From: an uncultured Dokdonia sp.
Lineage (GTDB): Bacteria; Bacteroidota; Bacteroidia; Flavobacteriales; Flavobacteriaceae
Reading direction: 5' to 3'
NCBI RefSeq assembly: GCF_947496725.1
Contig: NZ_CANMDS010000004.1
Location: forward strand, 1 to 64,000
DNA length: 64,000 bases
The notes under the pieces are model-generated. The model ran no database searches. It had not been told where the DNA came from and saw only the letters and a list, made by a program, of their open reading frames with translations. The position numbers were made by a program, and so were the translations under genes. This document shows positions 21-64,000 of the stretch, piece by piece (position 1 is the stretch's first letter; every line of letters begins with the position of its first letter).

Positions 21-23
21 TTT

Positions 24-1877: not shown

Positions 1878-1891
1878 GCTTTCGCGAAAGC
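1878..1891. repeat. Dispersed palindrome GCTTTCGCGAAAGC, intergenic
   Basis: A perfect 14-bp copy in the divergent region between murQ and the coiled-coil gene, flanked by TTA on the left and TTAA on the right. Confidence 0.95.
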
Positions 1892-1970
1892 TTAAAAAAG
1901 AAAATTTGTCATTAAAAAAGTATTGATTTACTATCACAAATTGTGACTTTTAAATTTTAACGACTATCCA

Positions 1971-2001
1971 TTGCACGGCTATTTTTCAAATGTTAACTTT
2001 G
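1971..2001 (+). promoter_or_regulatory. Bacteroidota-type promoter for the zapA operon
   Basis: TTG at 1971-1973, a 20-nt spacer and TAACTTTG at 1994-2001 match the flavobacterial consensus TTG-N17-23-TAnnTTTG at both elements. It lies 25 nt upstream of the ATG at 2027. Confidence 0.7.
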
Positions 2002-2026
2002 TGTTACGTAGAAATGCAGATGTTTT

Positions 2027-2317
2027 ATGAGTAGTCTTTCTGAAGTTGTAGATTCTCTTGAGTACAAAATCGCTGCTTTGTTGAAACAATACAAAGATGT
2101 GAAGCAAACACGGGTAGAACTGGAAACAGAACTTACCGCATTGCAACAAGAAAATCTAAAACTAAAAGAGGTGTTAGAAAATCGTGAGCAGAAGATAAAG
2201 ACTCTCAAAACCGCAAATGCATTACTAGGCAGTAACGATTATAAAAGGGAAACCAAACTAAAGATAAACTCTTTAGTGCGTGAGATAGATGCTTGTATTG
2301 CATCGCTTGCAGAATAA
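2027..2317 (+). CDS. Coiled-coil protein upstream of zapA
   Basis: A 96-residue, highly charged protein that is nearly all predicted coiled coil between about residues 8 and 70, with heptad-like Leu/Ile spacing and no membrane segment. It ends with INSLVREIDACIASL. It is followed 6 nt later by zapA and shares its promoter. Its size, composition and position recall ZapB-type cell-division coiled coils, but sequence homology to ZapB cannot be claimed. A partner role with ZapA at the FtsZ ring is inferred from context only. Confidence 0.75.
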   Translation: MSSLSEVVDSLEYKIAALLKQYKDVKQTRVELETELTALQQENLKLKEVLENREQKIKTLKTANALLGSNDYKRETKLKINSLVREIDACIASLAE

Positions 2318-2323
2318 TAAATT

Positions 2324-2614
2324 ATGGCAGACAAGCTCAAAATCAAGTTGTCTATAGCAGATCGTGTATACCCACTCACGATTCATCCATCTCAAGAAGA
2401 GGGATTGCGTAAAGCAACAAAAGAGATTGAGGCAATGGTCAAGCAATTTGAGCAAAGCTATGCCGTTAGAGATAAACAGGATGTACTCGCAATGTGTGCA
2501 CTTCAATTTGCATCTCAGGTTACCCAAAAAACTATAAGTGAAGACTCTCTAAGTGAGGAAACTGCGGCTAGATTACAAAAGCTGGCAGACCTCCTTGATG
2601 ATAGTTTGTCATAA
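2324..2614 (+). CDS. zapA: Cell division protein ZapA
   Basis: A 96-residue protein of the usual ZapA length, with the N-terminal beta-rich head (KLKIKLSIADRVYPL) followed by EEGLRKATKEIEAMVKQF and a C-terminal coiled coil. ZapA binds FtsZ and cross-links protofilaments at midcell. The gene follows a coiled-coil protein by 6 nt, and a structured RNA and RNase Y come next. The zapA - 6S RNA neighbourhood is also known from gammaproteobacteria. Confidence 0.9.
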   Translation: MADKLKIKLSIADRVYPLTIHPSQEEGLRKATKEIEAMVKQFEQSYAVRDKQDVLAMCALQFASQVTQKTISEDSLSEETAARLQKLADLLDDSLS

Positions 2615-2708
2615 CGTTCTTTACATACAACAGCATATTACTGCCTGCATTGATTATTATTTTGATAAACTCAACAGTTATTTTTTATAAAGAGTGACTC
2701 TAAGTTGT

Positions 2709-2826
2709 AAAAGCACGCCGTTACTAGACTTGTTCTAGGTAGACGGAACCTTGATCAGCTTTATAGCTCTAATCCTTACTATTAGGAGTTTATACGAAAT
2801 GCACTATCAATGTGGGCTTTTTTTAT
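2709..2826 (+). ncRNA. ssrS: Probable 6S-like (6S-Flavo / SsrS) RNA
   Basis: The 300-nt gap between zapA and rny holds a compact fold of about 118 nt. AAAAGCAC at 2709-2716 pairs with GTGGGCTTTT at 2812-2821 (two unpaired bases), closing two internal hairpins at 2718-2746 (11 pairs) and 2767-2788. The 3' strand ends in a T-tract. Length and the position directly after zapA fit the flavobacterial 6S RNA, which sequesters RNA polymerase in stationary phase. The family call rests on structure and context, without a covariance-model search. The rest of the gap (2827-2914) holds only two short hairpins. Confidence 0.6.
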
Positions 2827-2914
2827 ATCTCATCGCGAGATAGTGAGGCTTAAAAGCCTTAACAATCAACCATCAGTAGCGCCTGTAAAGGCATTATAAT
2901 ATTAAGTCAAAATT

Positions 2915-4919: not shown

Positions 4920-5537
4920 ATGCAAATTGTTGTAGCCACGATTTCGCACACACCATATGCTCAGATTATCTGTGATACCATCGCAGAGTCATCTAAGGTA
5001 CGTGGTACAGGAATCGCTCGTAGAACTCCAGAATATGTCATCTCAAAGATGGAAGCAGGTAATGCTGTCATCGCTTTAGAGGGAGACGTTTTTGCGGGCT
5101 TCTGTTATATAGAAGCCTGGGGACACGAAAAATTTATTGCCAACTCTGGACTTATTGTTCACCCAGACTTCAGAGGACAGGGACTTGCCAAAAAAATTAA
5201 AGGAGAGATATTTACGCTTTCGCGAAAGCGTTATCCAGATGCAAAAATCTTCGGAATCACTACGGGTTTAGCCGTGATGAAGATTAATAGTGACCTTGGT
5301 TATAAACCCGTCACGTTTTCTGAACTCACAACAGATGAAAGCTTCTGGAAAGGTTGCCAGACCTGCAAGAACTTTGACGTGCTCACACGTACAGAGCAAA
5401 AGATGTGCTTATGCACGGGGATGCTCTATGACCCATCAAAAGAATCAAAATCCACAGAAAAAAATACTGTAAAAGCACCTGTTTTTAACAGGCTGAAACA
5501 AATAAAGGAAAAGCTATTCCTTAAAAAAAATAAGTAA
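4920..5537 (+). CDS. GNAT acetyltransferase, first gene of the arginine operon
   Basis: A 205-residue protein with a GNAT fold: the acetyl-CoA loop HPDFRGQGLAKK is at about 81-92. Residues 100-103 (LSRK) are encoded by a copy of the dispersed palindrome. The C-terminal part has Cys146, Cys149, Cys163 and Cys165, a CxxC...CxC arrangement unusual for GNATs, possibly metal binding. The operon contains a deacylase (argE) and no argJ, so it needs an N-acylglutamate synthase. This GNAT is the natural candidate, by context only. The stop overlaps the argG start (TAATG). Confidence 0.8.
   Translation: MQIVVATISHTPYAQIICDTIAESSKVRGTGIARRTPEYVISKMEAGNAVIALEGDVFAGFCYIEAWGHEKFIANSGLIVHPDFRGQGLAKKIKGEIFTLSRKRYPDAKIFGITTGLAVMKINSDLGYKPVTFSELTTDESFWKGCQTCKNFDVLTRTEQKMCLCTGMLYDPSKESKSTEKNTVKAPVFNRLKQIKEKLFLKKNK
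5216..5229. repeat. Dispersed palindrome in the arg-operon GNAT gene (LSRK frame)
   Basis: A perfect 14-bp copy within the gene, read as Leu-Ser-Arg-Lys at residues 100-103. Confidence 0.95.
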
Positions 5538-6718
5538 TGAAAAAATTAATCTTAGCATACTCAGGAGGACTCGATACGAGCTATTGTGTAAAATATTTTA
5601 CTGCAGAAATGGGATATGAAGTGCACGCTGTAAGTGTAAATACAGGTGGATTTACAGATCAAGAAATCGCAAATAATAAAGAGAAAGCGCTTGCACTAGG
5701 AGCTACATCATATACAAACATAGATGCCATAGCTACCTTTTATGATACGGTGGTAAAGTATCTCATTTTTGGTAATGTACTTAAGAACAACAGTTACCCA
5801 CTTTCTGTAAGTGCAGAGCGTATCGTGCAAGCCATAGAGATTGCAAAATTTGCCAAAGCTCAAAATGCAAATGCTATTGCTCACGGTAGTACGGGTGCAG
5901 GTAACGATCAGGTGCGTTTTGATATGACGTTCCAGACTATTGTGCCAGAGTTAGAAATAATAACGCCGATAAGAGATCAAACGCTTTCGCGAAAGCAAGA
6001 AATCGATTACTTACAGAGTCACGGTATTTCTTGGTCTTGGGAGAAAGCTCAATACTCAATAAATCAAGGTTTATGGGGTACAAGTGTAGGAGGTGCTCAA
6101 ACCCTAACCTCACATCAAACACTGCCTCAGGATGCATATCCTAGTCAGCTAGAGGCTAGCGATTCTCAAACCTTAAAAATTGGATTTACACAAGGGGAAC
6201 CTACTTCGCTTAATGGAAAGCAAGGTTCACCAGTGGAGATTATAGAGCAACTAGAAGACATCGCAAGCAAGTATGCCATAGGTCGCGGGATGCACGTGGG
6301 AGACACCATTATTGGTATAAAGGGAAGAGTAGGTTTTGAAGCTGCAGCTCCTATAATTATACTAGAAGCACATCGTACTCTTGAGAAACACACACTTTCA
6401 AAATGGCAATTACAACACAAAGAAAACATCGCGTTGTGGTATGGAACTCACTTACACGAGGGATTATACCTAGAGCCTGTAATGAGAGATTTTGAAGCTT
6501 TTTTACAGAGCAGCCAGAATACGGTGACTGGAGAAGTAGAAGTAGTATTACATCCATATAGATTTGATGTAGTAGGCATCACATCAGATTATGATCTTAT
6601 GCAATCTAAGGTAGCGAGTTACGGAGAAGAAAACCAAGGCTGGACCGCCGCCGAAGCTAAAGGATTTATAAAAATACTAGGTAACCAGTCTAGAATTATA
6701 GCAAACCAAAACAAATGA
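5537..6718 (+). CDS. argG: Argininosuccinate synthase
   Basis: A 393-residue cytoplasmic enzyme joining citrulline and aspartate with ATP to form argininosuccinate. The N-terminal PP-loop AYSGGLDTS (residues 7-15) is diagnostic, and AHGSTGAGNDQVRFDMTF is the citrulline/aspartate-binding segment. Length matches the family. Residues from about 150 (LSRK) are encoded by a dispersed palindrome copy. The gene overlaps its neighbours by 1 nt upstream and 4 nt (ATGA) downstream, so translation is probably coupled. Confidence 0.96.
   Translation: MKKLILAYSGGLDTSYCVKYFTAEMGYEVHAVSVNTGGFTDQEIANNKEKALALGATSYTNIDAIATFYDTVVKYLIFGNVLKNNSYPLSVSAERIVQAIEIAKFAKAQNANAIAHGSTGAGNDQVRFDMTFQTIVPELEIITPIRDQTLSRKQEIDYLQSHGISWSWEKAQYSINQGLWGTSVGGAQTLTSHQTLPQDAYPSQLEASDSQTLKIGFTQGEPTSLNGKQGSPVEIIEQLEDIASKYAIGRGMHVGDTIIGIKGRVGFEAAAPIIILEAHRTLEKHTLSKWQLQHKENIALWYGTHLHEGLYLEPVMRDFEAFLQSSQNTVTGEVEVVLHPYRFDVVGITSDYDLMQSKVASYGEENQGWTAAEAKGFIKILGNQSRIIANQNK
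5983..5996. repeat. Dispersed palindrome in argG (LSRK frame)
   Basis: A perfect 14-bp copy in argG, read Leu-Ser-Arg-Lys within RDQTLSRKQE. Confidence 0.95.
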
Positions 6719-7689
6719 AAAAAATAGGAATCATAGGTGGTGCAGGTTATACTGCTGGGGAGCTCATTAGACTGCTTATTCATCACCCAGAAGTGCAGAT
6801 AGATTTTATATACAGCACAAGTAATGCGGGTAATGCAGTAGGGATTGTTCATCAAGATCTTGCTCACGTAGACCTTAGTTTTACAAGTAAAGTAAATAGT
6901 GAGGTAGATGTAGTTTTCTTATGCTTGGGTCATGGTAATTCTGGCGAATTCTTGAGAAATCATACATTTTCTGATGCTACAAAGGTTGTTGACCTGAGTA
7001 ATGAATTTAGACTTAAAAATGATATCTTTTTTCAAGATCGAGTTTTTGTATACGGACTTCCAGAAATCAATAAAGAGGAAATAAAAAACGCGCAGAATAT
7101 TGCAAATCCAGGCTGTTTTGCAACTGCTATTCAGCTTGCGTTATTGCCGCTTGCGAGCGCTTCTTTACTTAGCCAAGATGTGCATATTAATGCCGTTACA
7201 GGTGCTACGGGAGCGGGAGTAAAACCAAGTGCTACTACGCATTTTGGGTGGAGAGATAATAACTTCTCACACTATAAGGCTTTTAATCATCAGCATCTTG
7301 GGGAGATAGGAGAGTCTGTCGTTCAGCTGCAAGAGAGTTTTAACAGCGAACTTCATTTCATTCCGCAGCGTGGTAATTTTTCTAGAGGAATTTTTGCAAC
7401 TGCCTACACATTTTATGAGGGTACGATTGAAGAGGCATATGCCCTTTATGAGGATTTTTATAAGGACTCCGCTTTCGCGAAAGCGGTAAGAGCACCTTTA
7501 CATCTCAAACAAGTGGTAAATACCAACTACTGCTTTATACACTTAGAAAAACACGGCAATAAATTATTAATCACGAGTGTGATTGATAACCTCCTAAAGG
7601 GTGCAAGTGGTCAAGCTGTAGAAAATATGAATCTAATGTTTGGTTGGGCTCAAGATACTGGTCTCCATCTCAAGGCAAGTTATTTCTAA
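6715..7689 (+). CDS. argC: N-acetyl-gamma-glutamyl-phosphate reductase
   Basis: A 324-residue NADPH-dependent enzyme reducing N-acylglutamyl phosphate to the semialdehyde. It has the Rossmann start IGIIGGAGYTAGELIRLL, the catalytic Cys (about residue 134) in NPGCFATA, and GATGAGVKPSATTHF. Residues 253-257 (AFAKA) come from a dispersed palindrome, in a region between the conserved SRGIF and LKQVVNTNYC blocks. The start overlaps argG by 4 nt, and proC follows after 18 nt. Confidence 0.95.
   Translation: MKKIGIIGGAGYTAGELIRLLIHHPEVQIDFIYSTSNAGNAVGIVHQDLAHVDLSFTSKVNSEVDVVFLCLGHGNSGEFLRNHTFSDATKVVDLSNEFRLKNDIFFQDRVFVYGLPEINKEEIKNAQNIANPGCFATAIQLALLPLASASLLSQDVHINAVTGATGAGVKPSATTHFGWRDNNFSHYKAFNHQHLGEIGESVVQLQESFNSELHFIPQRGNFSRGIFATAYTFYEGTIEEAYALYEDFYKDSAFAKAVRAPLHLKQVVNTNYCFIHLEKHGNKLLITSVIDNLLKGASGQAVENMNLMFGWAQDTGLHLKASYF
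7471..7484. repeat. Dispersed palindrome in argC (AFAKA frame)
   Basis: A perfect 14-bp copy, read Ala-Phe-Ala-Lys-Ala at residues 253-257. Confidence 0.95.
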
Positions 7690-9639: not shown

Positions 9640-10601
9640 AGAACTACATATCTATAAATGATATTCCTAATTTAGAAATGGCGATTAAAGAAGCGCTGTA
9701 TATGAAGGAATATCCGTACGCTTTCGCGAAAGCGGGAAAACAAAAAACCTTAGGTCTTCTATTTTTTAACTCAAGCTTACGTACAAGATTGAGCACAGAA
9801 AAGGCTGCCAAAAACCTTGGAATGGAGACGATGACACTCAATGTAAACAGTGATAGCTGGCAACTAGAGTTTGAAGATGGTACTGTGATGGATGGCACAA
9901 AAGCAGAGCACATTAAAGAGGCTGCGCAGGTGTTATCGCAATATTGTGATGTACTTGCCGTGAGAGCTTTTCCAGGGCTGGTAGATAAAAGTCAAGATGA
10001 GCTAGAGGTTGTACTTTCTGCATTTATGCAATATGGGAGTGTGCCGGTTGTAAATCTAGAAAGCAGTACGGCGCACCCGCTACAAGGCTTTACAGATGCA
10101 ATCACGATTTACGAACTCACCGAAAGTCTACGTGCAGCAAATAAAAAGCCTAATGTTGTGTTGACCTGGGCGCCACACCCTAAAGCATTGCCACACGCAG
10201 TTGCAAACTCATTTGTCCAGACTATGCAAAAGGCAAATGTGAATTTCACAATTACTAATCCAGAGGGTTATGATCTTAACCCAGAGATACGTGGTGAAGT
10301 ACCTGTGATTCATAACCAGAAAGAAGCCTTTGCAAATGCCGATATCATTTATGTAAAAAACTGGAGCAGCTATGAAGATTATGGTAAGGTGCAATCGCAA
10401 GACAGTAACTGGATGATTAATGCCGAAAAACTTAAGGGAACTAATCAAGCCAAAGTAATGCATTGCCTACCTGTGCGCCGTAACGTTGTCATTGCAGATG
10501 ATGTGCTAGACACCGAGTCAAGCGCTGTAATCCAGCAAGCTGGTAATAGAACGTGGGCTGCACAATGGGTGCTTAAAAAGATACTCGACAATGATGAATA
10601 A
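9636..10601 (+). CDS. argF: N-acylornithine carbamoyltransferase (ArgF' type)
   Basis: A 321-residue transcarbamylase. The carbamoyl-phosphate site is NSSLRTRLSTEKAA at about 45-58, followed by HPLQGFTDA and MHCLPVRRN. Bacteroidota use N-succinyl- or N-acetylornithine here, and the MHCLPVRRN end and the co-located deacylase fit that variant rather than plain ornithine carbamoyltransferase. The precise acyl group is unresolved. Residues 29-33 (AFAKA) are encoded by a dispersed palindrome. It overlaps argD by 4 nt and argB by 11 nt. Confidence 0.9.
   Translation: MKNYISINDIPNLEMAIKEALYMKEYPYAFAKAGKQKTLGLLFFNSSLRTRLSTEKAAKNLGMETMTLNVNSDSWQLEFEDGTVMDGTKAEHIKEAAQVLSQYCDVLAVRAFPGLVDKSQDELEVVLSAFMQYGSVPVVNLESSTAHPLQGFTDAITIYELTESLRAANKKPNVVLTWAPHPKALPHAVANSFVQTMQKANVNFTITNPEGYDLNPEIRGEVPVIHNQKEAFANADIIYVKNWSSYEDYGKVQSQDSNWMINAEKLKGTNQAKVMHCLPVRRNVVIADDVLDTESSAVIQQAGNRTWAAQWVLKKILDNDE
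9720..9733. repeat. Dispersed palindrome in the carbamoyltransferase gene (AFAKA frame)
   Basis: A perfect 14-bp copy, read Ala-Phe-Ala-Lys-Ala at residues 29-33. Confidence 0.95.
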
Positions 10602-11376: not shown

Positions 11377-12437
11377 AAACTCAAATTGATAGCGCCGTAG
11401 CATTGCTGCAATCACTCATTGAGACACAAAGTTTTTCTAGCGAAGAAGACGGCACAGCTTTACTTATCATAAACTGGTTAGAGGAGGAGGGGATTACGCT
11501 TTCGCGAAAGCGTAACAACATCTACGCATTTAATAAACATTATGACGCATCAAAACCGTTATTGCTTCTCAACTCCCACCACGATACGGTTAAGCCAAAT
11601 AAAGGATACACAAGAGATCCTTATAATGCCGAAATCAAGGACGGGAAATTGTACGGTCTAGGCAGTAATGATGCAGGTGCAAGTCTTGTAGGATTGCTTA
11701 CTGCGTTTGTTCATTTTTATGAGCGTGAGGGTATGTCTCATAATATTGTAATTGTAGCTTCTGCTGAAGAAGAGTCAAGTGGTCCAAATGGTCTTAATAG
11801 TATGCTTGCGCATCTACCAGAAATAGATGTTGCCATAGTAGGCGAGCCTACACTTATGAACCTCGCCATTGCCGAAAAAGGTTTGGTTGTTTTTGATGCA
11901 GTAGTAAAAGGAACGGCAGGTCACGCAGCTCATATAAAGGAGAATATGGCTATTTATAATGTGATAGAAACCTTGCAGTGGTTTGAAAATATAACTTTTG
12001 ATAAAGTGTCTGATACGCTGGGTGCAACTAAGGTTACAGTTACTCAAATTAATGCGGGTAGTCAACATAATGTAGTGCCTAGTCAGGTAGAACTCGTTAT
12101 AGATGTGAGAGTTAATGAACATTACAGCAATCAAGAAATCGCCGATTATATGGCGGCAAATGTGCCGTGTGACACAATACAGCCACGGTCATTGCGGCTA
12201 AATAGTTCGCGTATCCCAAAAGAGCACAAGCTTGTAAAAGCTGGAATTGCATTAGGCAGAGAAACCTACGGTTCGCCTACCTTATCTGATCAAGCCTGCT
12301 TGTCTTGTCCATCTTTAAAGCTAGGTATAGGTGACAGCACACGCTCTCATATGGCAGATGAGTTTGTTTACGTACACGAGATAGAGCAGGGGATAGCATT
12401 ATACATCGAGCTCTTAGAAAAATTTTTAACCGCATAA
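11367..12437 (+). CDS. argE: N-acylornithine/N-acylcitrulline deacylase (M20 family)
   Basis: A 356-residue M20 metallopeptidase. Zinc-binding and catalytic motifs are NSHHDTVKP, GLGSNDAGASLVGLL and AEEESSGPNG, followed by VGEPT and, after the dimerisation insert, a C-terminal His region. After an N-acylornithine carbamoyltransferase the expected substrate is N-acylcitrulline, which is deacylated to citrulline for ArgG. Residues 45-48 (LSRK) are encoded by a dispersed palindrome. It overlaps argB by 10 nt. Confidence 0.88.
   Translation: MSLKTQIDSAVALLQSLIETQSFSSEEDGTALLIINWLEEEGITLSRKRNNIYAFNKHYDASKPLLLLNSHHDTVKPNKGYTRDPYNAEIKDGKLYGLGSNDAGASLVGLLTAFVHFYEREGMSHNIVIVASAEEESSGPNGLNSMLAHLPEIDVAIVGEPTLMNLAIAEKGLVVFDAVVKGTAGHAAHIKENMAIYNVIETLQWFENITFDKVSDTLGATKVTVTQINAGSQHNVVPSQVELVIDVRVNEHYSNQEIADYMAANVPCDTIQPRSLRLNSSRIPKEHKLVKAGIALGRETYGSPTLSDQACLSCPSLKLGIGDSTRSHMADEFVYVHEIEQGIALYIELLEKFLTA
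11498..11511. repeat. Dispersed palindrome in argE (LSRK frame)
   Basis: A perfect copy whose flanks extend the dyad symmetry to 22 bp (11494-11515). It is read Leu-Ser-Arg-Lys at residues 45-48. Confidence 0.95.
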
Positions 12438-15291: not shown

Positions 15292-15305
15292 GCTTTCGCG
15301 AAAGC
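15292..15305. repeat. Dispersed palindrome, intergenic, 22-bp dyad
   Basis: A perfect core between leuB and the lipoprotein gene. Flanking TTAC/GTAA extend the symmetry to 22 bp (15288-15309). Confidence 0.95.
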
Positions 15306-16522: not shown

Positions 16523-17113
16523 TTAAAACACCATTCGTTCTTTTTCAAAGGCCTCTATTTCGGCCTTTTTACTTAGTAGAAAGTCGATATCATCATATCC
16601 ATTAATCATACAAACCTTCTTGTAAGGATCTATTTCAAATTCCGCTTTCGCGAAAGCGGTCTCAACTACCTGATTTTCTAGATCTATTGTAATAGGTAAC
16701 TCAGGGTTTGCTTCTATACCTGCTAGTAATTCCTTAAGATACTCCGGCGTCACCTGAATGGGAAGTAAGCCGTTGTTAAGTGCATTACCTTTAAAAATAT
16801 CTGCAAAAAAACTTGAGATCACGACCTTAAACCCATATCCTACAATTGCCCAAGCAGCGTGCTCACGGCTAGACCCACAACCAAAGTTATCTCCAGCTAC
16901 CAGAATTTTTGCTCCAGCATATTGTGGTTTATTAATAGGGAAATCTGCATCCAGCGTTCCATCTTTTTTAAAGCGCCAGTCTCTAAAAACGTTATCACCA
17001 AATCCTTTTTTATCTGTCGCCTTCAGGAAGCGCGCAGGGATAATCTGGTCTGTATCTATATTTTCTATAGGTAGCGGTACCGCTGTGCTTATGAGTTTTG
17101 TAAATTTTTCCAT
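16523..17113 (-). CDS. leuD: 3-isopropylmalate dehydratase small subunit
   Basis: A 196-residue aconitase swivel-domain subunit that pairs with LeuC to isomerise 2- to 3-isopropylmalate. [12 protein letters not shown] and [13 protein letters not shown] are the family signatures. Residues 153-157 (AFAKA), near the C-terminal domain, come from a dispersed palindrome. The start codon overlaps the leuC stop (TAATG), a 1-nt overlap consistent with coupled, equimolar translation. Confidence 0.95.
16644..16657. repeat. Dispersed palindrome in leuD (AFAKA frame)
   Basis: A perfect 14-bp copy, read Ala-Phe-Ala-Lys-Ala at residues 153-157. Confidence 0.95.
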
Positions 17114-23020: not shown

Positions 23021-23034
23021 GCTTTCGCGAAAGC
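23021..23034. repeat. Dispersed palindrome, intergenic panB - pseudouridine synthase
   Basis: A perfect copy filling most of the 34-nt gap between the panB stop and the start of the next co-directional gene. In the transcript it could form a 7-bp stem with the loop CGCG. Confidence 0.95.
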
Positions 23035-42926: not shown

Positions 42927-42940
42927 GCTTTCGCGAAAGC
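42927..42940. repeat. Dispersed palindrome, intergenic cdd - pdhA, 22-bp dyad
   Basis: A perfect core with TTAC/GTAA flanks extending symmetry to 22 bp (42923-42944). In RNA it could form an 8-11 bp stem followed by AAAA. Confidence 0.95.
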
Positions 42941-46812: not shown

Positions 46813-47493
46813 ATGAAAAGAGTTATTATTACCGGTACAAGTAGAGGTATAGGTTTTGAGCTGGCAAAGCAGTTTGCAAAGGAGGGGCATCAGGTACTTG
46901 CGCTTTCGCGAAAGCATAAAAGTTGTGCAGATCTTAATCTACAAAATCTTACCGCATTTCCTTTTGATATTACAAATCAAGATGATTTTCAAAAAGTTGT
47001 AGACTTTATAGAGAGCGATTGGGAAGGTGTCGATATCTTAATTAATAATGCAGGTGCATTATTAAACAAACCATTTGCAGAGACTACCATTGCAGATTTT
47101 GAACAAGTGTATCGTGTCAACGTTTTTGGTGTAGCAGAGATGACTCGTGTAGTGCTGCCTTATATGAGCAAGGGAAGCCACGTGGTGACTGTATCAAGTA
47201 TGGGAGGAATACAAGGGAGTATGAAATTCCCGGGTCTGGCGGCTTATAGCTCAAGTAAAGGAGCAGTTATCACCTGGAACGAACTTCTGGCAGAAGAGTA
47301 TAAAGAAAGCGGTATTGCTTTTAATGTGCTAGCTCTAGGAGCTGTACAAACAGAGATGCTAGAAGAAGCATTTCCGGGTTATGAGGCACCACTTAGTGCA
47401 GTGCAAATGGCAGATTATCTTTATGACTTCTCTCGTAAGGGCAATGCTTTTTATAACGGTAAAACACTGCAAGTCTCTGCAAGTACACCTTAA
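46813..47493 (+). CDS. Short-chain dehydrogenase/reductase
   Basis: A 226-residue classical SDR. The cofactor motif is TGTSRGIGFELAKQ, NNAG is present in ILINNAGALLN, and catalysis uses VSSMGG with AYSSSKGAV (Tyr-x3-Lys). Residues 31-34 (LSRK) directly after the second beta strand come from a dispersed palindrome, close to the residues that select NADP over NAD. The substrate is unknown. A SprT-like gene follows after 3 nt. Confidence 0.9.
   Translation: MKRVIITGTSRGIGFELAKQFAKEGHQVLALSRKHKSCADLNLQNLTAFPFDITNQDDFQKVVDFIESDWEGVDILINNAGALLNKPFAETTIADFEQVYRVNVFGVAEMTRVVLPYMSKGSHVVTVSSMGGIQGSMKFPGLAAYSSSKGAVITWNELLAEEYKESGIAFNVLALGAVQTEMLEEAFPGYEAPLSAVQMADYLYDFSRKGNAFYNGKTLQVSASTP
46902..46915. 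repeat. Dispersed palindrome in an SDR gene (LSRK frame)
   Basis: A perfect 14-bp copy, read Leu-Ser-Arg-Lys at residues 31-34. Confidence 0.95.
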
Positions 47494-50739: not shown

Positions 50740-50753
50740 GCTTTCGCGAAAGC
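50740..50753. repeat. Dispersed palindrome, intergenic between convergent genes
   Basis: A perfect core in the 91-nt gap between the ends of the DUF389 gene (plus) and mlaF-like gene (minus). No other terminator is seen here. Confidence 0.95.
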
Positions 50754-53498: not shown

Positions 53499-54350
53499 TT
53501 AGAGCCCTAGCTTTTTTCTTATGCCAGCCCAGCGGGTAGTTCTTATAAAATCACCCTCCTGTGGAGTCACGAGGTATTCTTTTTTTGCAGCTTTTGCTTT
53601 AAGATAGCCACTTAGGTAGTCTTTGAGCAATTTTATATTACCTTTTCTTTTGGCGAGTTTGCTAGAAGCTATAAGTGTTAGTGTAAGTCCGTAGCGCATA
53701 CCATAAAACGCTTCGCCTTGCTTGTATTGTGCACTTTTATTGTATGTATTTCCGGTAGGTTTAAGATGTTTTACGTGCAGGGTGTCATCTGTGTGAATCT
53801 CCCATTTATGATATTTTGCAAGTAGCTCATCTATAGTGTCCCATCCCATAGCTTTCTTTATGCCACCTATATCTTTAAAACAAGCTTTGCGGTATGCCTT
53901 GAGTGCACCTCTTATGTGATCTTTATTTGTGAGGTTTTCTAGCTCCCAGTTTCCGTCTTTTTCAATGTAACAGAAACCGCCTGCCATTCCAATAGCATTG
54001 TTTTTTGTAAAAGCATTATTTACTTTTTCTAAGTAGTTGTGCGGGAAAATGAGATCTGCATCATACTTGCAAATCACATCATACTCATCATCTATGCTTT
54101 CAAAACCTTTGTAAAAAGCGTTTATGACTTTGCTTCCTGGTAGGTGCTTGTCGCTACTTGTGGTGTTGAGTAGGTGTATGTATGAGTGCGCTTTCGCGAA
54201 AGCGGAAACAATCTCGGCACTATTATCTGTGCTTTGGTCATTTACGACTACCACTTTTTTAGGAAGATGCGTTTGCGCTACCAAAGATGCAAGCGTCTGA
54301 CCAATAAAAGCCGACTCATTGTGACAAGGGATGACAATATAAAAATCCAT
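53499..54350 (-). CDS. GT2-family glycosyltransferase
   Basis: A 283-residue GT-A enzyme: VIPCHNESAFIGQTL, VVNDQSTDNS and the metal-binding DxD-type CKYDADLIFP. There is no transmembrane helix, so it acts at the inner face of the membrane or in the cytosol. Residues 50-54 (AFAKA) come from a dispersed palindrome in the loop after the second strand. It follows a methyltransferase gene by 1 nt. The glycan target is unknown. Confidence 0.9.
   Translation of the reverse strand: MDFYIVIPCHNESAFIGQTLASLVAQTHLPKKVVVVNDQSTDNSAEIVSAFAKAHSYIHLLNTTSSDKHLPGSKVINAFYKGFESIDDEYDVICKYDADLIFPHNYLEKVNNAFTKNNAIGMAGGFCYIEKDGNWELENLTNKDHIRGALKAYRKACFKDIGGIKKAMGWDTIDELLAKYHKWEIHTDDTLHVKHLKPTGNTYNKSAQYKQGEAFYGMRYGLTLTLIASSKLAKRKGNIKLLKDYLSGYLKAKAAKKEYLVTPQEGDFIRTTRWAGIRKKLGL
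54190..54203. repeat. Dispersed palindrome in a GT2 gene (AFAKA frame)
   Basis: A perfect 14-bp copy, read Ala-Phe-Ala-Lys-Ala at residues 50-54. Confidence 0.95.
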
Positions 54351-56239: not shown

Positions 56240-59089
56240 TTATGCTTCCATATATTCTTCTATAGGCGCACACGTACATATTAAATTACGGTCACCATAT
56301 GCATCATCTACACGACGTACAGTAGGCCAGAATTTATTTTCGGCAACGTAGCTTAGTGGGTATGCTGCTTGCTCTCTACTGTATGTAAAGTCCCAAGTAT
56401 CTGCCGTGAGCATTGCTAGGGTGTGAGGAGCGTTTTTCATTATATGATTAGGCTCATCTGCCGTAGCTGTTTCTATCTCTTTTCTTATTGATAACATAGC
56501 ATCACAAAAACGATCTAGCTCTTCTCTGCTTTCACTTTCTGTAGGCTCTATCATAATAGTTCCTGCAACAGGAAATGATACTGTAGGTGCGTGAAAACCA
56601 TAGTCCATAAGTCGCTTTGCAATATCTGTCACTTCAATACCATTTGCTTTAAAAGGGCGGCAGTCTATAATCATCTCGTGAGCTGCGCGACCGCGTTCTC
56701 CTACATAAAGACACTGGTAAGCACCATCTAGTCTTTCTTTAATATAATTTGCATTAAGGATTGCATACTCAGTAGAGTGACGCAGTCCTGGTTCACCTAG
56801 CATAGTGATATATGCATAAGATATTAAGCAAGCTAGAGCAGACCCCCAAGGAGCAGCACTTATTGCTGTAATAGCTTTATCTCCTCCGGTTGTAATAACA
56901 GGGTTAGATGGTAAAAATGGAACTAGTTGCTTTGCAACACAAATAGGTCCTACACCTGGGCCACCGCCTCCGTGAGGAATAGCAAAGGTTTTATGTAGGT
57001 TAAGGTGACACACATCTGCACCTATCGCACCTGGGTTAGTAAGGGCAACTTGTGCATTCATATTTGCACCGTCCATATATACCTGGCCGCCGTTATCGTG
57101 TATGAGTTGCGTGATTTCTTTTACAGCACTCTCATAAACACCGTGTGTAGATGGATATGTAATCATAAGTGCGGCAAGATTGTCCTTATGCTTCTCAGCC
57201 TTCTCACGTAAGTCGTCTACATCAATGTTTCCATTTTCTAGCGCTTTAGTTACCACTACTTTCATACCTGCCATTACTGCACTTGCAGGATTTGTTCCGT
57301 GTGCAGAAGATGGAATGAGGCAAATGTTTCTATGGCTGTCTCCACGAGACTCGTGGTATGCTCTTATAACCATAAGACCGGCATACTCACCTTGTGCACC
57401 AGAGTTAGGTTGTAATGAAGTGCCTGCAAAACCAGTGATTTCCGTAAGTTGATCTTCTAGTTTTTTAAGCATCGTCTGGTACCCTTCTGCTTGATCTAGT
57501 GGTGCAAATGGGTGCATATTCCCCCACTGCGGATCAGAAAGTGGTAGCATTTCAGAAGCAGCGTTAAGCTTCATCGTACAAGACCCTAAAGAGATCATTG
57601 AGTGATTTAATGATAAATCTTTACGCTCAAGTTTTTTGATGTAACGCATTAACTCTGTTTCAGAGTGGTATGTGTTAAAAACTGGAAGCGTTAAAAATGA
57701 TGTCTCACGTGCTACTGTTTCAGGTATCGCATTTCCTTCGGCTATTTCTGTTACTGTGATTGTTTCTTTTGAGTACGCTTTCGCGAAAGCGGAAATAATA
57801 TCATTTACATCTTGAAGTGTTGTTGCCTCGTGTATTGATATGGCCACTGTCTCTGCATCTGGATAGTGGAAGTTAATCTCCATCTCTTGTGCAACTGCAG
57901 CTACCTTTGCAGCATCTGCCTTAATCTGGATAGTGTCAAAGTAACTCTCGTTTACTTGATATAATCCTAATTTTTCAAGTGCATCTGCTACAGTTGCCGC
58001 AGTATTGTGTACTTTATTTGCTATATTTTTTAATCCTTCTGGACCGTGATAGACACCGTACATACCTGCCATAACTGCAAGTAGTACTTGTGCGGTACAA
58101 ATGTTTGACGTTGCTTTATCACGTTTGATGTGTTGCTCGCGTGTTTGAAGTGCCATACGTAGAGCACGCTTACCATCTGTGTCTTTTGTCACACCGATGA
58201 TACGACCCGGGATACTTCTCTTGTAAGCTTCCTTAGTTGCAAAGTATGCGGCGTGAGGACCTCCGTACCCTAGCGGAATACCAAAACGTTGTGTGGTACC
58301 TACCACTACGTCTACTCCAAACTCTCCTGGAGCACGTAGTTTTACAAGACTTAATATATCTGCAGCAACGGCTACTTTAATTTCGGCGGCATTTGCTTTT
58401 TCTACAAAGGCAGCATAATCATATACTTTTCCAGATACTCCTGGGTATTGTAAAATAGCCCCAAAGTATTCACTAGAAAAGTCAAAGTCTTCGTGCTTAC
58501 CTACTACAAGTTCTATTCCTATAGGAGTAGAGCGTGTTTGTAGTAATGACAGCGTTTGTGGTAATATCTCTTCAGATACAAAAAACTTGTGTACACCTTC
58601 CTTCTTTTGTGCACGACTACGTACAGAAAATAAGAGTGCCATAGCCTCTGCAGCGGCTGTTGCCTCATCAAGTAGGGAAGCATTTGCAAGCTCCATACCC
58701 GTAAGGTCTGTAATCATAGTCTGGTAGTTGAGCAAAGCTTCAAGTCTTCCTTGTGCAATCTCTGCTTGGTACGGTGTATATGCCGTATACCATCCTGGAT
58801 TTTCTAAAATATTACGCTGTATGACTGCAGGTGTAATTGCTTGATTATACCCTAGACCTATAAATGATCTGTATACTTTGTTTTTGTTAGAAAGTGCAGT
58901 AATGTGAGCAGCAAACTCGTGCTCACTTATGGCTGGATCTAATGATAATGGATTGTCGAGTCTGATGTTATCTGGAATGGTCTCAAAAATGAGTTGTTCC
59001 ATAGTCTCAACTCCTACGGTTTTAAGCATCTCTGGGAGATCACTTCTACGTGGGCCTATGTGGCGTAATGCAAACGAATCTGTATTCAT
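56240..59089 (-). CDS. gcvP: Glycine dehydrogenase (decarboxylating), P protein
   Basis: A 949-residue PLP enzyme, the single-chain form of the glycine cleavage P protein. It decarboxylates glycine and passes the aminomethyl group to lipoylated GcvH. The C-terminal half has the PLP lysine in NLHKTFAIPHGGGGPG (about residue 700), and SLGSCTMKLNAASEM and PNSGAQGEYAGL are the other active-site blocks. The N-terminal half includes GYYDTHTP-type sequence altered to NPGWYTAYTPYQ. Residues 434-438 (AFAKA), in the inter-domain region, are encoded by a dispersed palindrome. gcvH and gcvT are not nearby. Confidence 0.96.
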   Translation of the reverse strand: MNTDSFALRHIGPRRSDLPEMLKTVGVETMEQLIFETIPDNIRLDNPLSLDPAISEHEFAAHITALSNKNKVYRSFIGLGYNQAITPAVIQRNILENPGWYTAYTPYQAEIAQGRLEALLNYQTMITDLTGMELANASLLDEATAAAEAMALLFSVRSRAQKKEGVHKFFVSEEILPQTLSLLQTRSTPIGIELVVGKHEDFDFSSEYFGAILQYPGVSGKVYDYAAFVEKANAAEIKVAVAADILSLVKLRAPGEFGVDVVVGTTQRFGIPLGYGGPHAAYFATKEAYKRSIPGRIIGVTKDTDGKRALRMALQTREQHIKRDKATSNICTAQVLLAVMAGMYGVYHGPEGLKNIANKVHNTAATVADALEKLGLYQVNESYFDTIQIKADAAKVAAVAQEMEINFHYPDAETVAISIHEATTLQDVNDIISAFAKAYSKETITVTEIAEGNAIPETVARETSFLTLPVFNTYHSETELMRYIKKLERKDLSLNHSMISLGSCTMKLNAASEMLPLSDPQWGNMHPFAPLDQAEGYQTMLKKLEDQLTEITGFAGTSLQPNSGAQGEYAGLMVIRAYHESRGDSHRNICLIPSSAHGTNPASAVMAGMKVVVTKALENGNIDVDDLREKAEKHKDNLAALMITYPSTHGVYESAVKEITQLIHDNGGQVYMDGANMNAQVALTNPGAIGADVCHLNLHKTFAIPHGGGGPGVGPICVAKQLVPFLPSNPVITTGGDKAITAISAAPWGSALACLISYAYITMLGEPGLRHSTEYAILNANYIKERLDGAYQCLYVGERGRAAHEMIIDCRPFKANGIEVTDIAKRLMDYGFHAPTVSFPVAGTIMIEPTESESREELDRFCDAMLSIRKEIETATADEPNHIMKNAPHTLAMLTADTWDFTYSREQAAYPLSYVAENKFWPTVRRVDDAYGDRNLICTCAPIEEYMEA
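57777..57790. repeat. Dispersed palindrome in gcvP (AFAKA frame)
   Basis: A perfect 14-bp copy, read Ala-Phe-Ala-Lys-Ala at residues 434-438, in the region joining the two halves. Confidence 0.95.
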
Positions 59090-61006: not shown

Positions 61007-61483
61007 TTACGCTTTCGCGAAAGCCGAATCTCCACCGTTTTCGAGTGTGTATTTCAGATGCGCGTTCCTTTTTTTTATGAGACGAGTTAAATAATTATAG
61101 AGGACTGTTTTATCAAAAAAGTCTCCAGCAAGACCATATGGAGTTTTATATGTAATGATATCCTGCATTTTAGTGCTATCATTCTGGTCTATGAAAATGT
61201 GCTTGTGGTGGAAAGACTTAAACCTACCTTTAATCATTTCATCTACAAAGCTCGTATAGGGTTCGTACTCTGTAATAAGACTCGTGTGCGTTAACCAGAG
61301 GCCGAAATGTTTTCCTCGCCAGGTAACCGTTTCACCCTTTTTAATGCAACCAGAAGTTACACCAGCTATCGCTTTTTCTTGCGATTGATCCATAGACTGC
61401 ATATGAAAGTCTATGTTGAGCGATAGTTTAAAAACAGCCGCTACCGGAGCATTAATTATAGTTTCAAGTTGTATGGTGCTCAT
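61007..61483 (-). CDS. SRPBCC-fold protein (polyketide-cyclase/Bet v1-like)
   Basis: A 158-residue START/SRPBCC-like protein: IQLETIINAPVAAVFKLSLNID at the start, the mid-protein VTWRGKHFGLWLTHTSLI strands, and a long C-terminal helix (LYNYLTRLIKKRNAHLKYTL). Such proteins bind hydrophobic ligands; the ligand is unknown. The last five codons (AFAKA, residues 154-158) and the adjoining stop are supplied by a dispersed palindrome, so the natural domain ends before it. The gene follows the TIGR01777 gene by 5 nt. Confidence 0.78.
   Translation of the reverse strand: MSTIQLETIINAPVAAVFKLSLNIDFHMQSMDQSQEKAIAGVTSGCIKKGETVTWRGKHFGLWLTHTSLITEYEPYTSFVDEMIKGRFKSFHHKHIFIDQNDSTKMQDIITYKTPYGLAGDFFDKTVLYNYLTRLIKKRNAHLKYTLENGGDSAFAKA
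61011..61024. repeat. Dispersed palindrome forming a protein C-terminus (AFAKA frame)
   Basis: A perfect 14-bp copy. The extended right arm reads GCG TAA in this gene, so the repeat provides both the last residues and the stop codon. Confidence 0.95.
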
Positions 61484-61488: not shown

Positions 61489-62403
61489 TTAAGCTATTAA
61501 GTTATATAGTGCTTTCTTTAATTCTGGGTGTGTAAAAGTAAATCCAGCTTTTATTAACCGTTCTGGTATCACATACCTGCTTTTAAGAAGTAATTCGGTT
61601 TCTGTTCTAATGATAAAAGCTCCTATCTCTAAAAGTGGTTTTGACGCAGGAAGACCAAAGGAAACTTTCAAAACAGATCTCATATACTTCATAAGTTCGC
61701 TATTAGTTGTGGCCATAGGGGAGACTATATTAAATGCCCCTTTTAAAGTATCGTTTTTAATTAAAAAGTCTAAGCTTCGCACAAAGTCATCTTGATGTAC
61801 CCAGCTGAATTTTTGTTTGCCATCGCCTTGTTTGCCACCTAGGCCTAATTGAGTTATTTTTTTGATAGGTTGTAGTGCTCCTCCATCCTTTCCTAAAACG
61901 ATAGAAGTACGTAGCGCAACTTTGCGAGTAAGTGGAGTATCGCTGTCAAAAAAAGCTTGCTCCCACGCCTTTGCAACTTCGACAGAAAAGCCAGTGCCTA
62001 CCTCACCATTTACCTCTGTCATAGGTGTCTCTAGCGAGTGTCTGTATATAGTAGCTGTAGATGAGTTAAGCCACACCTGCGGCGGATTGCTGCACTGAGA
62101 GATAGCCTTACCTATAATGGTTGTCGTGTCTACTCGTGAATTTAAAATTGCGTCTCTGTTCTTTTTGTGATAACGACAGTCTACAGATCTACCAGCCATA
62201 TTTATGACTACATCTGTATCTTCAAATTCGTTTTTCCATCCTGCTACATTTTTTGCATCCCACAGTACTGTACGAACATTGTTAGAAGGTGCTTTTTGCT
62301 TTCGCGAAAGCAAAACTATTTCCTCAAATTGATTTTGAAAGTGGTTAATAAGTATACTGCCTAAAAAGCCACTACCGCCAGCGATTATTAATTTTTTCAT
62401 CAT
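61489..62403 (-). CDS. TIGR01777-family epimerase (SDR39U1-like)
   Basis: A 304-residue atypical extended SDR: GGSGFLGSILINHFQ, VVINMAGRSVDCRY, and RTSIVLGKDGGALQPI, with the C-terminal DUF1731 part (FGLPASKPLLEIGAFIIRTETELLLKSR region). The typical Tyr-x3-Lys is not evident, as usual for this family, whose reaction is not known. Residues 32-35 (LSRK) are encoded by a dispersed palindrome. It is followed by the SRPBCC gene and preceded by a small membrane protein gene, all co-directional. Confidence 0.88.
   Translation of the reverse strand: MMKKLIIAGGSGFLGSILINHFQNQFEEIVLLSRKQKAPSNNVRTVLWDAKNVAGWKNEFEDTDVVINMAGRSVDCRYHKKNRDAILNSRVDTTTIIGKAISQCSNPPQVWLNSSTATIYRHSLETPMTEVNGEVGTGFSVEVAKAWEQAFFDSDTPLTRKVALRTSIVLGKDGGALQPIKKITQLGLGGKQGDGKQKFSWVHQDDFVRSLDFLIKNDTLKGAFNIVSPMATTNSELMKYMRSVLKVSFGLPASKPLLEIGAFIIRTETELLLKSRYVIPERLIKAGFTFTHPELKKALYNLIA
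62298..62311. repeat. Dispersed palindrome in the TIGR01777 gene (LSRK frame)
   Basis: A perfect 14-bp copy, read Leu-Ser-Arg-Lys at residues 32-35, right after the second beta strand as in the SDR gene at 46902. Confidence 0.95.
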
Positions 62404-62787: not shown

Positions 62788-62825
62788 AATATTTATATTT
62801 CAGAAATTATTGAAACTTTTAGTGA

Positions 62826-62849
62826 AATAAAAAGCACTTTCACAGTGCT
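62826..62849 (-). terminator. Intrinsic terminator behind the GbsR/MarR gene
   Basis: On the minus strand AGCACT (62844-62849) pairs with AGTGCT (62833-62838) across 5 nt, followed by a T-rich run. It lies 25 nt after the regulator stop codon. Confidence 0.65.
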
Positions 62850-62874
62850 CCTTAAATGTTGAGGTTAACAATTG

Positions 62875-63378
62875 TTACTTCATTAACTTCATAATTGTTT
62901 TTGTAATCCAGCTTTCTTTATAATCTGTAATTTTTTCTAGCATACTATCTGCTCTAGATACAAACTCATAAAGCTCTGCCGTTTTGGTCTTGAAGTGGGC
63001 AGCCTCTGTAGAGCCTGTTTCTTCTATACTACTTACTTCTTGCAAGACACGTAGCGTAGGTTTTATCTCTCTCTTGCTTCTTTCTTTGGCTATTTTTCTG
63101 GCAAGCTCATCTATATTACTTTCGGCTACAAAATACTCTCGGCGTTCACCCGTTTTATACTCTTTAAAGATAATTCCCCAGTCTATAAGTGCTCGTAGGT
63201 TCATACTCGCATTTCCTCTAGAGATATAAAGCTCGCCCATAATATCTTCCATACTTAACGCCTCTGGAGACACCATAAGTAAGGCGTGTATTTGAGCCAT
63301 TGTCTTATTAATACCCCATTGCGTACCTAGCGCTCCCCAAGTTTGTATAAACTTATTTTTTGCTTGATCAAATTCCAT
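62875..63378 (-). CDS. GbsR/MarR-family transcriptional regulator
   Basis: A 167-residue winged-helix DNA-binding protein: WGALGTQWGINKTMAQIHALL, EDIMGELYISRGNASMNLRAL (recognition helix) and GIIFKEYKTGERREYF (wing). This is the GbsR-type pattern, a MarR subgroup often tied to osmolyte or envelope genes. The C-terminal helices give dimerisation. Targets are unknown. Its promoter lies 4 nt before the ATG, implying a leaderless mRNA. It is divergent from the glycosyltransferase. Confidence 0.9.
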   Translation of the reverse strand: MEFDQAKNKFIQTWGALGTQWGINKTMAQIHALLMVSPEALSMEDIMGELYISRGNASMNLRALIDWGIIFKEYKTGERREYFVAESNIDELARKIAKERSKREIKPTLRVLQEVSSIEETGSTEAAHFKTKTAELYEFVSRADSMLEKITDYKESWITKTIMKLMK

Positions 63379-63382
63379 ACGT

Positions 63383-63411
63383 CAAATATAAGGATGTTAT
63401 TGTAATTTCAA
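63383..63411 (-). promoter_or_regulatory. Bacteroidota-type promoter of the GbsR/MarR gene
   Basis: On the minus strand TTG (63409-63411), an 18-nt spacer and TATATTTG (63383-63390) match the consensus at both elements. The -7 box ends 4 nt before the ATG. Confidence 0.7.
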
Positions 63412-63454
63412 AAATAAATGAAAGTTAAATTTTCACTGTCAGTTTTGTTATTCC

Positions 63455-63462
63455 TATTTTTG
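63455..63462 (+). promoter_or_regulatory. Bacteroidota -7 element abutting a start codon (TATTTTTG)
   Basis: TATTTTTG ends 4 nt before the ATG at 63467. No -33 TTG at standard spacing. Confidence 0.35.
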
Positions 63463-63466
63463 GATT

Positions 63467-64000
63467 ATGAATGTACTTGTAATCTCAACAGTTTGGGTAG
63501 AGCCCACTTCTTCGGCAGCAGGAAGTAGGATGTTACAGCTGCTTACTATTTTTAAAGAAAAAGGCTGGAATGTCACCTATGCAAGTACAGCCGGAACTTC
63601 TCAAAATGCAATCTCGCTAAGTGATTTTGATATTGAGACCGCAACGATACAGCTTAACGATGATTCTTTTAACGCTTTCGCGAAAGCGTACAACCCCACC
63701 ATCGTACTCTTTGATAGATTTATGGCAGAGGAGCAATTTGGCTGGCGAATAGACGAAGCGTGCCCCAATGCTCTAAAAATACTAGACACCGAAGATCTGC
63801 ACTGTCTAAGAAAAGCAAGAGCGCAAGCCGTAAAAGAAGAGCGAGTTTTTGAACCCAAGGACTTAATTTCTGATATCGCCAAAAGGGAGATAGCCTCCAT
63901 TTACAGATGTGATCTCACCTTGATGATCTCAACAGTAGAGATGGATTTGCTACAAACTTTTTTTAAAGTTCCTGCTTCATTATTGCACTATGTACCATTT
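63467..64000 (+). CDS. Glycosyltransferase, N-terminal part (cut by window end)
   Basis: The first 178 codons of a gene that continues past the window. It starts MNVLVISTVWVEPTSSAAGSR, a Rossmann-like strand and glycine-rich loop typical of GT-B enzymes, followed by MLQLLTIFKEKGW. Flavobacterial glycosyltransferases with this start are common, but without the C-terminal nucleotide-sugar domain the call is tentative. Residues 70-74 (AFAKA) are encoded by a dispersed palindrome. Divergent from the GbsR/MarR gene. Confidence 0.7.
   Translation, partial: MNVLVISTVWVEPTSSAAGSRMLQLLTIFKEKGWNVTYASTAGTSQNAISLSDFDIETATIQLNDDSFNAFAKAYNPTIVLFDRFMAEEQFGWRIDEACPNALKILDTEDLHCLRKARAQAVKEERVFEPKDLISDIAKREIASIYRCDLTLMISTVEMDLLQTFFKVPASLLHYVPF
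63674..63687. repeat. Dispersed palindrome in the partial glycosyltransferase gene (AFAKA frame)
   Basis: A perfect 14-bp copy, read Ala-Phe-Ala-Lys-Ala at residues 70-74. Confidence 0.95.

Follow-up and report, generated by a model that had tools for sequence, protein, structure and literature searches.

A two-armed palindromic element spaced evenly along Dokdonia chromosomes and kept as DNA: a candidate self-recognition tag in Flavobacteriaceae

The 64-kb stretch of Dokdonia DNA considered here (the window, taken as Dokdonia because its PorU shares 96% identity with the PorU of a Dokdonia metagenome-assembled genome, L001) contains 25 exact copies of the 14-bp palindrome GCTTTCGCGAAAGC, at the positions that a reading of the sequence alone had given (1878 to 63674-63687), and none appears in 100 dinucleotide shuffles. 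The host genome (G000; 3,291,590 bases in 121 contigs) has 905 copies and none of the reversed control, a result far above chance in the whole-genome count that the sequence-only reading had set as its test. We find that the element is over-represented, evenly spaced and kept as DNA, and that in full it is about 64 bp long, consisting of the 14-bp core and two arms of about 25 bp, larger than first noted. We put at about even the chances that it is a genome-wide self-recognition code in Bacteroidota, which would be read as duplex by a two-fold symmetric protein, set protein sequence, be worn by resident phages and islands, and be gained and lost between genera as a system. For its function we lean, at somewhat under even confidence, towards a tag that marks self DNA in the manner of an uptake signal, with a palindromic form and no tie to type IV pili; the main rival is a chromosome-organising site.

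An evenly spaced element kept as DNA

Gaps between window copies run from 615 to 5197 bp, in agreement with the 0.6-5.2 kb of the sequence-only reading, and the spacing is more regular than chance. Along contig 1 of G000, the first 100 sites have a mean gap of 3,246 bp, a coefficient of variation (CV) of 0.46, a maximum of 7,322 bp and no gap (0 of 99) below 500 bp, and all these statistics fall outside an exponential null. The first 100 sites of a second Dokdonia genome, G001, have a CV of 0.74, raised by its two largest gaps, of about 16.7 kb each, and still under the null (P 0.0006); both gaps are mostly filled, each by one giant frame, the two being neighbouring frames of 4431 and 5060 aa without the motif (L355 3426-16721 and L356 125-15307, both on the minus strand). 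Sampled stretches give CVs of 0.52 (G001), 0.54 (G004), 0.60 (G008) and 0.38 (G223, of genus g10) against nulls of 0.85-0.90, and in G178 (genus g162) the CV is 0.57 against 0.76, which is not significant (P 0.09). Across 20 stretches round the complete G001 chromosome, which hold 3-9 copies per 20 kb (2 in a 5.75-kb one), no origin-to-terminus gradient is evident.

The sequence-only reading had called the palindrome a chromosome-wide address, and this description is well supported by the even spacing, by the strong conservation at the DNA level set out below, and by the lack of an evident gradient. Its claim that copies lie mostly inside genes, with at most one per gene, holds as a count, with 18 of 25 copies inside 18 different open reading frames (ORFs) and seven between ORFs (17 in and 8 out for closed ORFs of at least 100 aa alone, the copy at 63674 sitting in an ORF that leaves the window end), and fails per base, intergenic DNA having about nine times the copy density of genic DNA. 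In six sets that comprise 1.35 Mb in all, with 323 exact and 32 one-mismatch copies and mechanical gene calls, intergenic density exceeds genic density 9.5-, 6.5-, 11.2-, 7.4-, 16.3- and 2.6-fold, the last value being that of G178. The supposed indifference to gene function is therefore only half right, as intergenic enrichment counts against it.

Conservation was assessed in the syntenic 64-kb regions of five relatives (G001, G004, G005, G007 and G008), counting only alignable sites; G004, G005 and G007 are mutually close and not independent. The exact core stands at the same place at most of these sites: 15 of 16 for G001, 7 of 8 for G004, 9 of 10 for G005, 7 of 9 for G007 and 6 of 8 for G008. 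At aligned places in the four diverged relatives, core identity is 0.87-0.99 versus 0.62-0.88 in flanking bins, and overall the core (0.87-1.00) exceeds the flanking bins in each alignment, with the exception of one 4-bp bin in G007, a tie within 0.02. Exact copies are shared at the same places between species about 70-80% identical, including where neighbouring intergenic DNA has diverged; the intergenic cores at 42927 and 50740, for instance, survive amid diverged flanks. Because the same exact core occurs at orthologous places without insertion gaps, the element is not an inserted repeat and has not transposed. Its copies are neither confined to the region of the window nor derived from a recent duplication.

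Around the core lies a further layer of structure. In the window, a G adjoins the core in 41 of 50 half-sites and a T comes next outward in 28 of 50, and the three copies said to be extended to TTAC/GTAA are indeed present, at 11498, 15292 and 42927. On both sides, the roughly 25 bp read 3' from the core contain 1-12% G, versus 19% in random controls; the depletion starts at about the third base outward and is gone by about 30 bp, with G+C little changed (480 half-sites, which include orthologous copies of related genomes; G001 and the window alone, 149 sites, agree). On average the arms are C-poor 5' and G-poor 3' of the core on either strand, C-rich words are enriched 3' of the core (that is, G-rich words 5' of it), and the run that follows the core is A-rich, not T-rich. 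The arms accompany genic and intergenic copies of Dokdonia and g10, are weaker and shorter in g162, and show no inverted repeat beyond composition and no sequence conservation between relatives. Relative to gene strand, upstream C stands at 0.53 and downstream G at 0.51 of the coding background (214 sites). Since the arms are equal on both sides whatever the gene direction, we take them to be read as DNA and not as mRNA, and on this ground we reject a function at the RNA level. Imperfect copies are scarce in the window (none with one mismatch, two with two, five with three). Among 24 Dokdonia near-misses sampled, the arms are kept (G 0.10, 23 measured), and mismatches fall at the two outer positions in 14 and at positions 1 or 4 from the centre in none.

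These properties bear directly on the idea of a small mobile or repetitive extragenic palindromic (REP)-like element, or a transcription terminator, multiplied by copying. Such an origin would account for many identical copies of a palindrome that can form a hairpin, and for the tendency of copies in tandem gaps to lie towards the 3' end of the upstream gene; we nevertheless consider it very improbable. The tiny REP-like element once suggested is contradicted by the gapless orthologous conservation, to which 16644 in G001 is the exception; the arms lack both inverted repeats beyond composition and conserved sequence, and 79 of 149 copies are inside genes, with arms symmetric to gene direction. 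Intrinsic termination and transposition are both unsupported, given the A-rich run after the core and the gapless conservation.

Where copies fall inside genes, proteins follow the DNA, the element having dictated the peptide AFAKA. At 37730 this peptide is in the PorU of four of four named Dokdonia loci, at 34196 it is in three of four, and at both it is absent from the other-genus variants listed (up to 12 of the 75 and 70 aligned, respectively). The peptide at 46902 is close to its family consensus, and this site is thus not evidence for DNA dictating protein. An additional copy 3' of parB, read by eye, supplies the last residues of a signal-peptide-like start (YAFAKAQ in G000); five of five Dokdonia genomes and the g162 genome shown have it, and the remaining genomes shown (three of g10, two of g126, one of g7) lack it at that place. 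From the AFAKA phase used in porU (37730), at 63674 and in the frame after parB, the tag seems to make use of protein stretches under loose constraint.

Genera, phages and islands

All 18 Dokdonia genomes examined (genus g1) carry 369-905 copies, with a control of 0, and Dokdonia, g10 and g162 all have one copy per 3 to 8 kb across their chromosomes. A family survey of 395 Flavobacteriaceae genomes of at least 90% completeness, from 203 genera, found any copy in 89 genomes and at least 400 only in G000 and G003 (g1), G026, G223 and G349 (g10) and G178 (g162); outside these three genera the counts were 0-19. In a class survey of 396 genomes, whose sample was without g10 and g162, 25 had a copy and only G000 was dense, all others having at most 4. 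No other dialect emerged among the named loci of other genera, where no palindrome of 12-14 bp and no 10-mer reached comparable excess at the thresholds used. The strongest other motif, TGTAGCTACA, itself palindromic, occurs at three places (six strand counts) in 24 kb of L039 (Winogradskyella tangerina; expected 0.03) and may be chance or another motif. A repeat, ACAACGGTCT, occurs eight times in 20 kb of L268 (G178; expected 0.025).

Low-copy genomes with listed positions are of two kinds. In G084, G261, G199, G091, G103 and others the copies are clustered, and certain spacings, 933 bp among them, recur; the copies of G142, G400 and the part of G363 that was listed are mostly scattered. The clustered regions compared (G084 and G091) have many genes in common: L260-L263 of G084 and L274-L275 of G091 are related islands with the 933-bp motif spacing, which is also present in G086, G103, G153, G199, G261 and G375. 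Judging from shared genes, spacings and arms, clustered low-copy regions would be mobile islands from tagged hosts, and the 933-bp islands are probably one mobile family spreading tagged DNA among genera.

Allowing one mismatch raises the count from 9 to 29 in G142, 6 to 23 in G296, 10 to 25 in G400, 15 to 45 in G363 and 6 to 25 in G056 (controls 0-1), and only from 2 to 3 in the third g40 genome, G243. One-mismatch copies make up 7-24% of exact plus one-mismatch copies in seven dense genomes, against 60-76% in three of three g126 and two of three g40 genomes; in absolute terms, one-mismatch versus exact copies number 24 versus 301 in Dokdonia, 9 versus 26 in islands and 8 versus 26 in phage pieces. 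The contrast in mismatch share between dense genomes and g126, g40 and the islands can be read as dependence on a host factor, and g126 and g40 may be relics of an earlier dense state whose copies are decaying. With copies near-perfect in some genera and rotting in others, a host factor must exist; the element depends on genome background. A single-gene ParB tree places g162 near g126, g7 and Dokdonia and g10 elsewhere, a topology on which loss or spread of the trait has occurred repeatedly.

The element also occurs in phages. A motif scan of IMG/VR returned at least 120 stretches; 80 were screened for G+C, which left 28 with low G+C or several copies. The analysis covered 21 of these 28; of the rest, four are on the same records and three were left out. 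Ten of the 21 phage records have a single copy, possibly by chance, while G425 has 7 copies in 37.4 kb, G421 has 5 in 27.0 kb and G413 has 4 in 30.6 kb. The records are partly dependent: the first two places of G425 recur in G429, and one spacing is common to G413, G430 and G431. Phage records L276-L286 hold 3-7 copies each, one per ~5-13 kb, with arms of the same kind; such arms were found in sampled islands as well. G425 bears MuA/MuB-like genes and a CI-like repressor, and G413 and G421 bear integrases, so that all three look temperate from their gene content.

Candidate readings and the search for a reader

As an uptake tag, the element would act in natural transformation. Its core would be bound at the cell surface by a DNA receptor with two-fold symmetry, which may belong to a Flavobacteriaceae competence machinery without classic homologues. 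The skewed arms might ease the opening of nearby strands or set the direction of entry, a role proposed for the flanking tracts of the Haemophilus uptake signal sequence (USS); that such tracts contribute is described in PMC7811141. Tagged fragments would enter preferentially and recombine, spreading copies that would in turn be repaired through recombination and purifying selection; because one copy per transformable fragment would be enough, even spacing would follow. If the receptor were lost, or tagged DNA arrived in another genus, copies would decay by point mutation. A tract of about 6 kb at about 75% identity to G001 within surroundings of about 95% identity suggests homologous import.

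The overall profile resembles that of described uptake sequences. PMC2397512 gives, for the Neisseria DNA uptake sequence (DUS), a core identity of 97% versus ~85%, a majority of intergenic copies and a spacing matched to conversion fragments, and the motif likewise resembles those in PMC3630211 and PMC1939737. R. columbina (Flavobacteriaceae in that paper's usage) prefers its own DNA according to PMC7965970, and for R. anatipestifer PMC8459023 names eight genes as essential for transformation, including one for a DUF5689 surface protein and no pilus gene. We found DUF5689 in 12 of 12 dense genomes (34 searched, 33 positive), and T2SSF, the platform family of type IV pili and of the type II secretion system (T2SS), in three of 12, which makes the uptake reading possible, not proven.

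Several observations weigh against uptake. DUF5689 is also present in 21 of 22 non-dense genomes, and a tree of 30 DUF5689 proteins (drawn without G103, G223 and G026) mixes paralogues and has no dense-only clade; no receptor was found, and a DUF5689 match alone does not prove a competence role here. T2SSF is missing from nine of 12 dense and 19 of 22 other genomes. Weak homologues of type IV pilus type are reported in F. johnsoniae in PMC7965970, which leaves room for pili in the family. Conservation has exceptions: all five relatives have a copy mapping to 33548, and three have one mapping to 59960, where the window has none. The density of the tag in temperate phages reaches one per 5.3 kb, which a role in chromosome structure explains at least as well. 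Finally, we know of no uptake or competence experiment in Dokdonia, and none of the uptake sequences known to us is palindromic.

The main rival, which we regard as possible while thinking it unlikely, is a chromosome-organising site, in which a homodimeric cytoplasmic DNA-binding protein of the nucleoid, segregation, occlusion or condensin-loading type would bind the core, use the arms and need a site every few kb of resident DNA, in prophages and integrated islands too. A perfect two-fold core, even spacing with close pairs avoided, and a chromosome with no evident origin-to-terminus gradient would all suit such a protein, as would temperate phages and islands that carry the element with arms of the same kind; the dyad and the phage copies fit it about as well as they fit uptake, and sequence does not separate the two. 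Known sites of this type, however, number tens, not about 900, the two giant genes of G001 (4431 and 5060 aa) fill most of two copy-free gaps of ~16.7 kb, and no candidate protein was found. In 32 genomes searched for ParB_N (PF02195), ten of 11 dense genomes have one match, an ordinary single-copy ParB, and all 21 others have at least one; the exception, G014, has two, and its second protein belongs to a ~616-aa class that occurs in non-dense genomes too. No dense-specific paralogue turned up in these genomes, and neither an extra ParB/Noc factor nor the parS/Noc site envisaged by the sequence-only reading is supported.

Two other readings are weaker than both of these. The first, to which we give a small chance, is a Chi-like or other recombination or repair signal, a palindrome read either way by an enzyme of RecBCD/AddAB type or another repair enzyme, with the C-poor strand 5' of the core suited to RecA loading. 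Arms strand-skewed on both sides at little-changed G+C, C-rich words 3' of the core (G-rich 5'), and a genome-wide spread that extends to phages agree with it; known Chi sites are 5-8 bp and not palindromic, and the arms reach only about 25 bp. The second, smaller still in our estimate, is a palindrome like HIP1, made or kept by a DNA methyltransferase and repair at an internal site such as CGCG or TCGCGA. HIP1 is palindromic and highly iterated and goes with methyltransferases in cyanobacteria, and the concentration of 14 of 24 Dokdonia near-misses at the outer two positions recalls a bias also reported for HIP1 (both points from PMC4390886); a target of 4-6 bp would leave the core length, the arms and the even spacing unexplained. 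In 30 genomes, the C5-methyltransferase family PF00145 is present in five of 12 dense genomes, the window's own being among the seven without it, and in nine of 18 others. We accordingly dropped a shared 5-methylcytosine (m5C) methyltransferase as a linked factor, and the DNA-modification target proposed earlier is unsupported as far as m5C enzymes go.

Overall, no cognate protein was found among the candidates searched (ParB_N, T2SSF, PF00145, DUF5689 and phage-shared proteins). With T2SSF in three of 12 dense and three of 22 other genomes, a type IV pilus link is not supported. G400 has one motif copy about 200 bp from a DUF5689 domain, which we treat as coincidence because only three of ten dense DUF5689 loci (~3.7 kb each) hold a copy; frames neighbouring DUF5689 at three loci gave no Pfam match, and an operon was not confirmed. 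The best protein common to unrelated motif-bearing phages (~211 aa, in five phages) gave a DUF1353 match (E 8e-6) in one of three tested, lies by our reading among tail/lysis-type genes, and was dropped. The LexA proteins of Bacteroidetes have different motifs (PMC8565304).

The window copies and kinship with known systems

In the left part of the window, 1878..1891 lies between ORFs 914-1771(-) and 2915-4480(+), covered only by a 63-aa frame; it is followed by 5216..5229 in ORF 4920-5537(+), 5983..5996 in the argininosuccinate synthase ORF 5537-6718(+), 7471..7484 in ORF 6715-7689(+), 9720..9733 in ORF 9636-10601(+) and 11498..11511 in ORF 11367-12437(+), the last a TTAC/GTAA copy with 22 bp of symmetry. 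Window 1-13550 gives no alignment to the fetched G001 region, which is otherwise ~95% identical. Copies kept in G001 follow at 15292..15305 (TTAC/GTAA; intergenic, between 14278-15174(-) and 15330-16445(-)), 17726..17739 (ORF 17113-18498(-)), 22406..22419 (ORF 22317-23006(-)), 23021..23034 (intergenic, 23006 to 23041) and 27078..27091 (ORF 26705-27214(-)); 16644..16657, in ORF 16523-17113(-), is broken in this near relative by 24 extra bases. Two intergenic copies come next: 28977..28990 (28955 to 29006) is at the same place in the G008 map and not in those of G001, G004, G005 and G007, and 30756..30769 (30649 to 30832) has a G008 copy mapping ~52 bp away and none in the other relatives' maps. 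Both lie within 27900-34100, the ~6-kb tract at ~75% identity to G001 with ~95% on both sides, where homologous recombination has probably replaced the allele with that of a distant relative. A 1059-aa frame at 30832-34011 (minus strand) matches glycerol kinase over residues 2-495 and glycerol-3-phosphate oxidase/dehydrogenase over ~508-1005, an apparent GlpK-GlpD fusion.

Further right, 34196..34209 (ORF 34102-35376(-), encoding AFAKA) is kept in G001, G004, G005 and G007 and lost in G008, and 37730..37743, in the porU ORF 37322-41131(+) and encoding YAFAKAQ, is kept in G001 and G008, with copies that map to this place in G004, G005 and G007. The TTAC/GTAA copy at 42927..42940 (intergenic, 42884 to 43068) is kept in G001, G004, G005 and G007, in the last three amid diverged flanks, and is not in the G008 map; 46902..46915 (ORF 46813-47493(+)) is kept in G001, G005 and G008 and has one mismatch in G004 and G007. 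All five relatives keep 48606..48619 (ORF 48102-49187(+), encoding AFAKA), 54190..54203 (ORF 53499-54350(-)), 57777..57790 (gcvP ORF 56240-59089(-)) and 62298..62311 (ORF 61489-62403(-)). The copy at 50740..50753, in the convergent gap 50677 to 50769, is kept in G001, G004, G005 and G007 with a G008 copy ~11 bp away, and 61011..61024, at the 3' end of ORF 61007-61483(-), is kept in G001 with a G008 copy ~14 bp away; 63674..63687, in ORF 63467-64000(+, leaving the window), encodes AFAKA and is kept in G005. The three shifted G008 copies, whose positions are approximate, may reflect local replacement or small indels.

Among known systems, the element resembles the DUS of Neisseriaceae and the USS of Pasteurellaceae in having a copy every one to several kb, exact copies strongly conserved at orthologous sites, an excess between genes, copies within genes at points where the protein tolerates them, a shaped distribution of gaps and restriction to certain genera, and it shares with the USS a specific core with compositional flanks. 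Over-representation, orthologous conservation, even spacing and intergenic enrichment, by which DUS and USS are judged, are all found here (G178 being weaker, with an enrichment of 2.6 and a spacing P of 0.09). It differs in being a 14-bp perfect palindrome with two symmetric arms where DUS and USS are one-directional motifs of 9-12 bp, in belonging to another phylum, and in that the T2SS platform family is absent from nine of 12 dense genomes; we know of no ComP-like receptor for it. As T2SSF is in only three of 12 dense genomes, which speaks against a cognate receptor on a type IV pilus, we regard the element as working like DUS and USS without classing it as one. Like HIP1 (GCGATCGC) of cyanobacteria, which is low or replaced in some relatives (PMC4390886), it is a palindrome iterated over whole genomes; it is six bases longer than HIP1, has skewed arms and lacks a shared m5C methyltransferase.

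With Noc-binding sites and parS, the element shares a perfect palindrome and a TTTC...GAAA look; it differs from them in numbering about 900 sites rather than tens and in its half-site spacing, and ten of 11 dense genomes have only an ordinary ParB, whose helix-turn-helix is ordinary by eye in the sequences read. With Chi sites it shares the character of a short genome-wide signal and, as in E. coli, strand-skewed surroundings, and it differs in being palindromic, 14 bp long and evenly spaced, with exact copies conserved in position. Literature searches, outside which most subscription papers lie, found neither GCTTTCGCGAAAGC as a printed string nor a description of the element; the 10-mer core appears there only in papers unrelated by title and abstract, and the main text of PMC5217627 is without Dokdonia or Krokinobacter. 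These comparisons suggest that the element belongs to a known kind, the highly iterated genome-wide DNA signal, and is undescribed within the literature searched.

If the element proves to be an uptake tag, Bacteroidota would have an uptake signal, and one that stands outside type IV pilus systems; a palindromic two-armed tag would be new, and would offer a handle on the poorly known flavobacterial competence machinery. If it instead serves to organise the chromosome, no code of that type known to us would come near it in density. Dokdonia can be cultured, and the skewed arms, together with the contrast between genera that are dense, relic or never dense, open the question to direct tests.

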